DNA of 53,370 nt. It comes from Elusimicrobiota bacterium (GTDB taxonomy: Bacteria > Elusimicrobiota > Elusimicrobia > 2-02-FULL-39-32). The stretch is from assembly GCA_016180425.1 (NCBI GenBank), contig JACPBF010000013.1:1-53370 (forward strand), given 5' to 3'. Within the stretch, counting starts at the first letter, position 1; the number at the start of each line of letters is the position of its first letter. The notes beneath the pieces were generated by a model, which made no database searches, was not told the origin of the DNA, and saw nothing but the letters and a program-made list of their open reading frames with translations. A program made the translations under genes and the position numbers. Positions 42,517 to 50,446 of the stretch are shown here, piece by piece.

Positions 42517-47249
<4,733 letters not shown>

Positions 47250-47269: not shown

Positions 47270-48418
47270 CTACTGCAGCCTCATGGGCATGATCACGCAA
47301 AGATAAGAGCCGCCTGGCTCCGGACGGATTAGCCCAGGATTTAGAGAGGATGTAAATTCAAAATGTATTTCAGGACTATCGCTATTTTTAAGAACATCCA
47401 GCAAAAAAGCTGGATTAAAAGCAATATCAAAATCGCTTCCATTATAAACAATGTCTAGCTCCTCTTCTTCCTCTCCCACATTTTGAGCGTTAGCGGAAAT
47501 TCTTAAAACTCCTTTCTTTAGAGAAAGCCTGACTGACCCGGAACGGTCCTGGGCAAAAAGCGCCGCTCTTTTAATTGCGGAAAAAATTTCAGATGTCTTT
47601 ACTTTTAGTTCAATCTCTTTATTTTTAGGAATCACTTGATCATAATTGGGAAAGGTTCCATCAATCACGCGGCTGACTAAAACAATTTCTTCCCCATCTT
47701 TAACCCATTTAAAAGAGACTTGGTTTTCATAAGGGGCGATATGAATGGTGTCCTCTTCTTTATCAGAAGATTGGTGGCTTAAAAGCCTCAATAGCTCATT
47801 CGTGGCTTTAGAAGGTATGATTACACTGGCGCTTAAAGTTTGTTCCACGCTATTTTTAGATATAAAGGCTAACCTTCTTCCATCTGTGGCTACCATTTTT
47901 AGCTCTCCGGATTGAACTATAAAAAAAATACCATTTAATACGTATCGTGTTTCATCGGTTGAAACCGCGAAATATGTTTTTTTAATCATCTCTTGAAAAA
48001 CAGATTTTTTAATTTGAAAAGATTGTTTTTCTGGAAACTGAGGGATCAGAGGAAAATCTTCCGGAGGCAAGGAAACAAGCGTGGCTTTTACCTTACCGCA
48101 TTTTAATTCAATTCTTTTGCCATCGTTTGTGGCAAGCTCAATTTCTTTTCCTTCTGGCATTTCCCGAACCAGCTCCCCAAATTTCTTCGCAGGAACTGTA
48201 ATCCTTCCTTCTTTTAAAATTTCCGCTTTTACAGTGGTGCGTATGCCCATTTCTAAATCTGTGGCTTCTAATCTAAGCACTGTGCCTGCTTTTTGGGAAG
48301 AACTTCCTGTTTGTAAAAGAAAATTAGAAAGGATAGGTAATGTTGTTTTATTTGAAATTGAAGATTGAACAATTTGGATCGCTTCTAATAAATCCGCTTT
48401 ATGAAATGAAAGTTGCAT
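47270..48418 (-). CDS. dnaN: DNA polymerase III beta sliding clamp
   Basis: The 382-residue clamp encircles DNA and tethers the polymerase. It shows the three-domain pattern with LLEAIQIVQSSISNKTTLPILSNFLLQT at the start, FFIVQSGELKMVATDGRRLAFI in the middle, and the C-terminal YLCVIMPMRLQ, which fits the clamp ending. AAGGAGG lies 8 nt before the ATG. The gap upstream, to dnaA, contains the candidate origin. Confidence 0.96.
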   Translation of the reverse strand: MQLSFHKADLLEAIQIVQSSISNKTTLPILSNFLLQTGSSSQKAGTVLRLEATDLEMGIRTTVKAEILKEGRITVPAKKFGELVREMPEGKEIELATNDGKRIELKCGKVKATLVSLPPEDFPLIPQFPEKQSFQIKKSVFQEMIKKTYFAVSTDETRYVLNGIFFIVQSGELKMVATDGRRLAFISKNSVEQTLSASVIIPSKATNELLRLLSHQSSDKEEDTIHIAPYENQVSFKWVKDGEEIVLVSRVIDGTFPNYDQVIPKNKEIELKVKTSEIFSAIKRAALFAQDRSGSVRLSLKKGVLRISANAQNVGEEEEELDIVYNGSDFDIAFNPAFLLDVLKNSDSPEIHFEFTSSLNPGLIRPEPGGSYLCVIMPMRLQ

Positions 48419-48439: not shown

Positions 48440-48692
48440 ATTACACACAAAATTTTTAATTTTTATACTATTAATATTATTTATATAAATTAGTAGTAGT
48501 ACTCGTAGGTCTTGTGAATATTATTAAAAAAATTTTTTAAAATATTAAAAGGTTTAAAATTAAGACTTTTAACAAACAATTTAATGTGAATATAATGTGA
48601 ATAACCTTTTATTTTTATTCACACAATCCCGATCATTTTTAATTGTCCACATTTTCAAGATCATTTTAACAAAAACTAGGGATTTTTCCACA
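48440..48692. other. Candidate oriC (dnaA-dnaN intergenic)
   Basis: The gap contains TTATTCACA boxes at 48596-48604 (minus) and 48615-48623 (plus). One-mismatch boxes lie at 48513-48521, 48585-48593, 48643-48651 and 48684-48692. Next to the box at 48513-48521 lies a DnaA-trio-like block (48491-48508), then an almost pure A/T tract (48450-48490), fitting an unwinding element. The order of box, short spacer, trios and AT-rich DNA follows the known basal unwinding system of bacterial origins. Gene orientation diverges around this area. Experimental proof is lacking. Confidence 0.8.
48491..48508 (-). promoter_or_regulatory. DnaA-trio-like element
   Basis: On the minus strand six trinucleotides read CTA CGA GTA CTA CTA CTA, so their complement is mostly 3'-GAT-5', the DnaA-trio unit. 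It starts 4 nt after a DnaA box and runs into the AT-rich tract. DnaA-trios guide DnaA filament growth on the opened strand. Confidence 0.65.
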
Positions 48693-48702
48693 AACCAAAA
48701 AT

Positions 48703-50163
48703 TTATCGATCCTCCATATTTTCGTTTTTAATTTCTTGAGTGATCTTATTGACCAAAGAAGACACAAATGGACTTTCAGCTAATTTTGCTTTTACCTTTT
48801 CACAGGCATGCAGCACGGTGGTATGGTCTTTGCCGCCAAAAAAATTTCCAATCTCTGTGGTGGAAAGATCTGTAAGCACTCGGGCTAAATACATGGTAAT
48901 TTGTCTGGGCCAGGCAATGGCATCCGTTCTTTTTTTAGATTTTAACTCTTTTATCTCTAAATTAAAGTGTTTTGCAACCACTTCTTGAATAATTTCCATG
49001 GAGATAGGACGATCCACATCCTCTTTTTTTAGGATATCTTTTAAGGTAGAGCGCACCGCATCCACAGTTAAAGGAGCGCTCATTAAAGATGCGAAAGCCG
49101 CGATTCTAATCAGAGCGCCTTCCAACTCTCTAATGTTTGATTTTACTTGGCTGGCAATAAATAAAATAACATCTTCCGGCACAAATATTTTTTCCGACTC
49201 AGCTTTTTTTCTTAATATGGCGATGCGCGTTTCCAAATCTGGAGGTTGCACATCCGCAACCACCCCCCATTCAAATCTAGAAATAAGTCTTTCCTGCAAA
49301 GCTCCCATTTCTTTAGGCGGCCTGTCTGAAGAGATCACGATCTGTTTTCTTGAGTCAAAAAGCGTATTAAAGGTAAAGAAAAATTCTTCTTCTGAACGGC
49401 CTTTACCCATTAAAAATTGAATGTCATCAATTAAAAGACAATCTAAATTTCTATATTTGTTGCGAAAATCCGCTGGCCTTTCAAATCTCAAAGAATTAAT
49501 GAATTCATTAATAAATTTTTCTGAACTAATGTAAAGCACCCGGGATTTTGGATGGTGTTGGAAAATTGCCTGCCCCAGAGCGTGCATGAGGTGAGTTTTA
49601 CCCAACCCCACATCTCCATAAATAAAAAGAGGATTGAATCGGGTTCCAGGCTCTTTGGAAACGCCTTCCGCAGCAGCTTTTGCAAAACGGTTGGTTTCTC
49701 CTTCAACAAAAGTTTCAAAAGTGTATTTAGGATTAAATTGTTCAACGCTAAATGAAGGATCATACGGCTCTTTAGGTTTTTGAATTGCAGGCAATTCTCT
49801 AAAGTTTGTTTGGGGCAGAGGTTCCAGCTCATCATTGGCAAGAACGATTTCTATTTCCAACTCTTTGGAAAACATTTCTTTTAAATAAGATTCAATATTG
49901 CTTTTTTCGTGATCTTTAATCCAGTCTGAAAAAATTTTGTTGGGAGCTTCTAAAATAAGACTATCTTTTTTGCCGGGAACATCGGAAGAAAAGGAGAGAG
50001 CCTTTACTGGTTTAAACCAGAGATCATAGCTTTCTATTCCCATTTCATTTTTTAAACGATTACAAATTTTTTCCCACAATTCTTGGAGGAAAAGAGCCTC
50101 AGATGTGGAACTAAATTGAGCAGCTTCTTTGGGCAGTACAGGATGATCAATATTTACACTCAT
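48703..50163 (-). CDS. dnaA: Chromosomal replication initiator DnaA
   Basis: The 486-residue AAA+ protein binds DnaA boxes and opens the origin. Domain I is near residues 25-120 (LWEKICNRLKNEMG, YDLWFKPVKALSF). The AAA+ domain has FNPLFIYGDVGLGKTHLMHALGQ (Walker A, near residue 181) and LLIDDIQFLMGKGRSEEEFF (Walker B). The C-terminal DNA-binding signature is FFGGKDHTTVLHACEKV. GAGGTG lies before the ATG. Three DnaA boxes overlap its promoter, so autoregulation is likely. Confidence 0.97.
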   Translation of the reverse strand: MSVNIDHPVLPKEAAQFSSTSEALFLQELWEKICNRLKNEMGIESYDLWFKPVKALSFSSDVPGKKDSLILEAPNKIFSDWIKDHEKSNIESYLKEMFSKELEIEIVLANDELEPLPQTNFRELPAIQKPKEPYDPSFSVEQFNPKYTFETFVEGETNRFAKAAAEGVSKEPGTRFNPLFIYGDVGLGKTHLMHALGQAIFQHHPKSRVLYISSEKFINEFINSLRFERPADFRNKYRNLDCLLIDDIQFLMGKGRSEEEFFFTFNTLFDSRKQIVISSDRPPKEMGALQERLISRFEWGVVADVQPPDLETRIAILRKKAESEKIFVPEDVILFIASQVKSNIRELEGALIRIAAFASLMSAPLTVDAVRSTLKDILKKEDVDRPISMEIIQEVVAKHFNLEIKELKSKKRTDAIAWPRQITMYLARVLTDLSTTEIGNFFGGKDHTTVLHACEKVKAKLAESPFVSSLVNKITQEIKNENMEDR

Positions 50164-50180
50164 AAATCACCTCGAATAAG

Positions 50181-50233
50181 TTATACACAGATTATACAGA
50201 CTTGTGGATAATTTTTGTTAATAATGTGAATAA
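50181..50233 (-). promoter_or_regulatory. dnaA promoter with three DnaA boxes in 22-bp phase
   Basis: TTATACACA lies at 50181-50189 (plus). TTATCCACA lies at 50203-50211 and TTATTCACA at 50225-50233, both on the minus strand. Their starts are exactly 22 bp apart, two helical turns. A TATAAT -10 on the minus strand (50196-50191) lies between the first two boxes, so DnaA binding would cover the promoter. The rest of the gap to rpmH (50234-50440) holds only AT-rich sequence. Confidence 0.75.
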
Positions 50234-50446
50234 TGTTATATTTTGTTATTTTCTGCCATCTACTACCATTCACTACATAAAAAGATCGTCACAACCAGTT
50301 CCAAAAATGACAAAATTCACTTAAATTTGATTTATCTTAACACTTTAAAAAATCTTTGTCAAACAATTAATTCTAACAAAAATTCTTTTTCTATGGTTAA
50401 AGGGAACACTGTTTTTAAGCCATGTGGAGATTATTGAAGACAGATA

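Follow-up and report, generated by a model that had tools for sequence, protein, structure and literature searches.

In the gap between dnaA and dnaN of an Elusimicrobiota chromosome, we found a block of six DnaA-trio triplets behind a DnaA box, which is very probably the opening site, or basal unwinding element (BUS), of the oriC of this chromosome. The block itself is an ordinary and convincing BUS of the known type. Its informative part turned out to be one deviant unit, CGA, which puts C at the middle of a trio on the strand that DnaA would bind.

Layout of the putative opening site

The window, namely the whole stretch of 53,370 bases analysed here, is an entire contig (G000:C24) of a 2.6-Mb genome in 43 contigs, and its nearest named relative is an Elusimicrobia MAG (locus L002) with a DnaA identity of 97%. 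In the window, rpmH (identified by reading the sequence), rnpA and yidC are divergent from dnaA–dnaN–dciA–gyrB. The genes dnaA (486 aa, 48703..50163, minus strand) and dnaN (382 aa, 47270..48418, minus strand), the latter being the downstream limit of the origin gap, are separated by 284 bases of 20% GC immediately upstream of dnaN.

The trio block CTA CGA GTA CTA CTA CTA (48491..48508, minus strand) is preceded by the spacer AGAC (48509..48512, minus strand) and by a proximal DnaA box ATATTCACA (48513..48521, minus strand), which has two mismatches to TTATCCACA and the same orientation as the trios. On the other side, 22 bases of A/T only (48469..48490, minus strand) form the likely route along which melting spreads. 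The sequence confirms what an earlier sequence-only reading had described, a minus-strand block of six triplets, four of them exactly CTA, 4 nt past a DnaA box and ahead of an A/T-only stretch; the CGA unit went unmentioned there. The DnaA-bound strand would be the plus strand, on which the block reads 3'-to-5' as GAT GCT CAT GAT GAT GAT.

Pelliciari 2021 (PMC8287927; see also PMC6669920) searched 2070 bacterial origins and predicted a BUS in 85% of them, by a rule of a box with at most 2 mismatches, a spacer of 0–16 and at least 3 trios with a middle A. The window block follows this rule: the box has 2 mismatches, the trios lie 3' of it on the same strand with 4 bp to the first CTA, and the bound strand carries five consecutive 3'-NAN-5' trios. 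Since the second unit violates the middle-A rule, the unbroken NTN run covers only five of the seven triplets from the first CTA to the ATT that comes after the block; it consists of GTA CTA CTA CTA ATT, following the non-conforming CGA, at a distance of 10 bp from the proximal box.

Such a block is rare. Six in-register triplets that begin with CTA and include at least four CTA occur once on the two strands of the window, and whole-window shuffles gave a mean of 0.05 trio-type blocks (20 shuffles). The string CTAN6CTACTACTA has two occurrences in the 2.6-Mb genome, the other one at C2:40651. Given a gap of 20% GC directly upstream of dnaN, and tracts that in some families enter the dnaN ribosome site, the triplets might be repeats due to chance or low complexity, or might belong to the promoter or leader of dnaN, with no role in opening. 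We regard this as very improbable, because none of 2000 dinucleotide shuffles of the dnaA–dnaN gap produced the block, and relatives with a gap GC of up to 49% keep the periodicity behind the box while the bases have changed.

The base-reading residues of DnaA are also in place. In B. subtilis DnaA (8BTG; PMC10721633), the middle base of a trio is held at its amino group by Asn187, and the first-base guanine is held by Arg202 at O6 and by Glu228 at N2. Aligned with the B. subtilis chain of 8BTG, the base-reading region of the window's DnaA is gapless and all three residues are conserved, as N219 (codon 49507..49509), R234 (codon 49462..49464) and E260 (codon 49384..49386), all on the minus strand, so that this DnaA carries the base-reading pocket. 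B. subtilis numbering is used for other DnaAs below. To our knowledge, atomic detail of DnaA opening at a BUS comes from B. subtilis only, and the DnaA of Bacteroidota seems to be without N187, R202 and E228.

Compared with the incC BUS of B. subtilis, the window shares the location in the dnaA–dnaN gap, the order of box, short spacer, trios and A/T-rich stretch, the orientation, the extra boxes upstream and the three DnaA residues. In contrast, the second unit of the window is 3'-GCT-5' and the third 3'-CAT-5', and a single weak proximal box stands in place of the consensus box plus box 7 of B. subtilis (DnaA-box 6/7).

Based on these features, we infer a putative opening mechanism. DnaA would bind the box cluster of the dnaA–dnaN gap and be loaded from the proximal box onto the plus strand of the trio block. 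Adjacent DnaA molecules would capture two bases of each triplet, the first G via R234 and E260 and the middle A or C via N219. The strand would thereby be stretched and the duplex opened, and melting would reach the A/T-only stretch as the site of helicase loading, probably with the DciA homologue encoded directly after dnaN. The CGA unit would be accepted as a proper trio, 3'-GCT-5', because C has an amino group as A does.

Conservation of the trios in relatives

We located dnaA and dnaN in the loci of relatives and read the gaps between them. The sequence-only reading had named relatives lacking the trinucleotides as one finding that would count against it; in the window's family the trios are kept, for of 8 gaps read 7 have a clear box and trios and the GC-rich L069 a weak version. 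Together with the published layout described above, this conservation leaves its assignment of the block as a basal unwinding element well supported.

Beyond this family, no tract clear of the dnaN ribosome site was seen in the gaps of f2, f3, f8, f13, f14 and f15, in which the reader residues are intact, and no clear trio tract was seen in those of f10 (S/T187, mostly R202, E228). In these seven families the element that opens the duplex may lie elsewhere, be shorter or have taken another form. An unsupervised period-3 model was trained across the phylum with a single gap from each genus. The 47 genera with N187, R202 and E228 showed a first C of 0.45, a middle T of 0.51 and G of 0.44, and a third A of 0.74, figures that are blurred since this set includes families (f2, f3, f8, f13–f15 and others) with ribosome-site or unconvincing tracts. 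For 6 genera of f17/f19, the tract C was at most 0.03 at every position.

In L129 and L131 (f24), L083/L096 (f9) and L086 (f8), the trio register appears to be continuous with the ribosome-binding site of dnaN (e.g. CTA CTA CTA AGG AGG CTA), as if the opening element and the translation start of dnaN were fused. The GGA/AGG units at the ribosome site have the 'allowed' middle G.

Two DnaA-box clusters around dnaA

Upstream of the proximal box, the dnaA–dnaN gap holds five further boxes, ATATTCACA with two mismatches (48585..48593, minus strand) and, with one mismatch each, TTATTCACA (48596..48604, minus strand, and again 48615..48623, plus strand), TTGTCCACA (48643..48651, plus strand) and TTTTCCACA (48684..48692, plus strand). 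A second cluster of mixed strands lies in the rpmH–dnaA gap (50181..50233) and consists of TTATACACA (+50181), TTATACAGA (+50192), TTATCCACA (-50203), TTATTAACA (-50216) and TTATTCACA (-50225). If a cluster is taken as 3 or more boxes, each with no more than one mismatch, within a 300-bp bin, the window has just two, in the bins at 48,600 and 50,100 on either side of dnaA.

The chromosome might accordingly open in the rpmH–dnaA gap, leaving the dnaA–dnaN block as an accessory site for DnaA loading or regulation. This gap indeed has the sole perfect box of both gaps (TTATCCACA) and the point at which the cumulative GC skew of the contig is lowest (50,391), as well as a 15-base motif conserved phylum-wide upstream of dnaA. 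However, its sole CTA/trio-like string, CTACTACC (plus strand, near 50,261), is not oriented as in a BUS behind a same-strand box and belongs to a conserved ATGGTAAAAG-type repeat, and it is in the dnaA–dnaN gap that relatives repeat the box and trios. We thus rejected this candidate as the opening site and consider opening there unlikely.

The GC skew changes sign near dnaA in the window, with a flank of just 3 kb on one side, and relatives are mixed: the minimum is near dnaA in G022, G003 and G075, 13 kb off in G006 and at a contig end in G001. The local skew supports the dnaA region without discriminating between its two gaps, and with minima so mixed across the window and relatives we abandoned skew as a pin for the opening site. 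The proposal that oriC lies at the dnaN-proximal end of the gap therefore holds in part. As the place of opening, this end is favoured only by analogy with known BUSs; as the place of the whole origin it is challenged by the second box cluster, the skew minimum and the mixed skew of relatives. A bipartite origin that opens at 48.49 kb is the probable arrangement.

The 15-base motif, with the consensus TAAAATATGGTAAAA, lies at about 50255–50275 (minus strand) in the window, and Elusimicrobiota of different families also carry it upstream of dnaA. Its model (33 genera supplied) reached a log-likelihood of 151, against 45–51 in three shuffles. Within the window's family the motif is doubled into the ATGGTAAAAG repeats, and further near matches were found beyond dnaA in 8 genomes searched. 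It is possibly a regulator site or a second origin element.

Middle base of natural trios

The 2021 search demanded a middle A, and the authors already suspected deviant trios (PMC8287927); the possibility of other recognised sequences was likewise raised by the B. subtilis BUS authors. In B. subtilis, engineered trios with a central C were nearly A-like in vitro and gave better growth in vivo than those with G or T (Pelliciari 2023, PMC10721633).

A register set by box spacing alone failed, with other box pairs often picked, the window included; we therefore used scans blind to the tested base. The middle-base scan looks for C..A each three bases with the middle ignored, and the first-base scan is blind to the first base. 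A box was required in 243 gaps, from Elusimicrobiota (113), Bacillota (79) and Synergistota (51). Gaps longer than 700 bases, loci with no dnaN close by, and L216 and L217 from other phyla were dropped before the counts, and the Elusimicrobiota loci L074, L127, L132 and L173 were kept despite no dnaN being found, using at most 300 bases after dnaA (at most 400 in the 115-gap scan below). Identical tract strings were counted once in the 243-gap middle-base and first-base scans, and one origin per genus was taken where stated. Trios within an origin and those of related origins are non-independent, and thus the counts overstate significance.

Of the 115 Elusimicrobiota gaps scanned, 13 reached 9/10 or more, with a middle T in 36 triplets, G in 12, A in 6 and C in 1, and all of the middle A except one came from family f16. 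Over the three phyla, 35 origins reached this score. In 30 of them, those with N187 and E228, the displayed-strand middle base was T 90, G 22, A 5 and C 5, part of the A and C counts being from tracts that overlap a box (e.g. L260, L372); on the bound strand this corresponds to A 90, C 22, T 5 and G 5. A middle G is present in 16 of these origins, A in 5 and C in 3. Lowering the threshold to 8 admits 76 origins, compared with 2.85 for each shuffle replicate. Of these origins, the 67 with N187 gave T 176, G 35, A 14 and C 11; the shuffles gave T 54, A 57, C 32 and G 33.

On the bound strand, the middle base of natural trios is thus most often A and next most often C, the latter being the case of the CGA unit. 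This agrees with the prediction of the amino-group rule drawn from the B. subtilis mutants. Whereas central C was engineered in those mutants, it is natural and widespread in the origins collected here. CGA units are found in Bacillota and Synergistota too, and we dropped the idea of a trio code unique to Elusimicrobiota. The results suggest that origin-finding programs should admit 3'-NCN-5' trios.

In family f16 (mostly S/T187 and mostly K202), T takes the place of C at the bound-strand middle: 6 genera gave a displayed middle T 17, A 9, C 1 and G 0, and 5 genera of its sister families gave T 18 and G 5. However, L327 (Synergistota; S187, K202) has a perfect CTA run (GAT on the bound strand), and we therefore gave up the view that N187 loss always alters the middle base. 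At most, N187 loss goes with a relaxation of the middle base.

First base and the guanine readers

In 9 of 9 genomes examined of the f17/f19 order, DnaA has R202H and E228V. The tracts behind their common double box contain T 88, A 47, G 26 and C 1 (162 bases), so that the bound strand is nearly without guanine whatever the register. The single f25 genome (R202Q, E228S) has TTA TTA TGA TTA TAA TTA, whereas CTA units are present in f24 and f29, the sister families of f25, whose readers are intact. In the DnaA tree, f25 groups with f24/f29 (100/98) and f17/f19 form a separate clade (100/100). TTA also occurs five times in L330 (R202I, E228Y), a divergent origin from Synergistota.

In the first-base scan, 6 of 7 double-loss origins, from 3 lineages, have C in at most 1 of 6 triplets; among origins with R/K202 and E228, 14 of 98 do. 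Within Elusimicrobiota, the mean first-base C is 0.56 in 8 intact genera (gap GC at most 0.36) and 0.11 in 6 double-loss genera. L326, which has lost R202 alone (W202, E228), keeps C. L212, with N187, R202 and E228, has TTA only, and thus intact readers do not require guanine. Since guanine-poor trios also occur with intact readers, the near absence of trio guanine in the three lineages without R202 and E228 is to be read from these sequences as a correlation over three events, all AT-rich.

Taken together, these patterns might mean that DnaA and its trios form an evolving recognition code readable from sequence, in which N187 permits a middle A or C, R202 with E228 favours a first G, double loss leaves trios nearly guanine-free (3'-A[A/C]T-5' in f17/f19), and S/T187 of f16 goes with a middle A or T. 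We rate such joint change of readers and trios at close to an even chance. It is also quite conceivable, though with a chance somewhat short of even, that the BUS is real and that drift in base composition and common descent account for the CGA units and missing guanines, with no co-evolution between trios and DnaA pocket. The double loss arose independently only three times, always in AT-rich origins, TTA-only trios accompany the intact readers of L212, S187 stands beside perfect trios in L327, and the N187 test depends on one family, f16. Against drift, a T-to-C change, being a transition, is at high GC as easy as T-to-G, yet G leads C by 22 to 5 at the middle base; the f17/f19 tracts, with 26 G and 1 C, are not simply GC-poor; and at a gap GC of at most 0.33 first-base C is similarly scarce in only 9 of 52 intact origins. 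Drift or ancestry would bear on the co-evolution reading alone and is compatible with the block being the opening site of oriC.

We found no published report of reader/trio co-variation in a literature search that covered the main texts of openly available journal papers. As far as this search reaches, the middle A/C bias, the guanine-poor trios of double-loss origins and the middle T of f16 are new. Compared with Pelliciari 2023, the present collection also holds origins without first-base guanine where both reader residues are lost. The collected origins are natural cases of a central C and of guanine-free trios beside a DnaA without guanine readers, and these deviant trios make the idea of a recognition code directly testable.

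Other features of the neighbourhood

Many Elusimicrobiota relatives have a second frame matching the DnaA ATPase domain only, often of 350–700 codons and at most 50% identical, for example G013:C23:40828-41550 and G003:C4:42287-42997; none was found in the window's own genome at the threshold used. The gyrB of the window (42517–46824, minus strand) encodes a 1435-aa protein carrying an in-frame intein at aa 594–1118, with Intein_splicing and LAGLIDADG_3 matches. Inside this intein there is a helix-turn-helix match (aa 733–792), which looks unusual for an intein.
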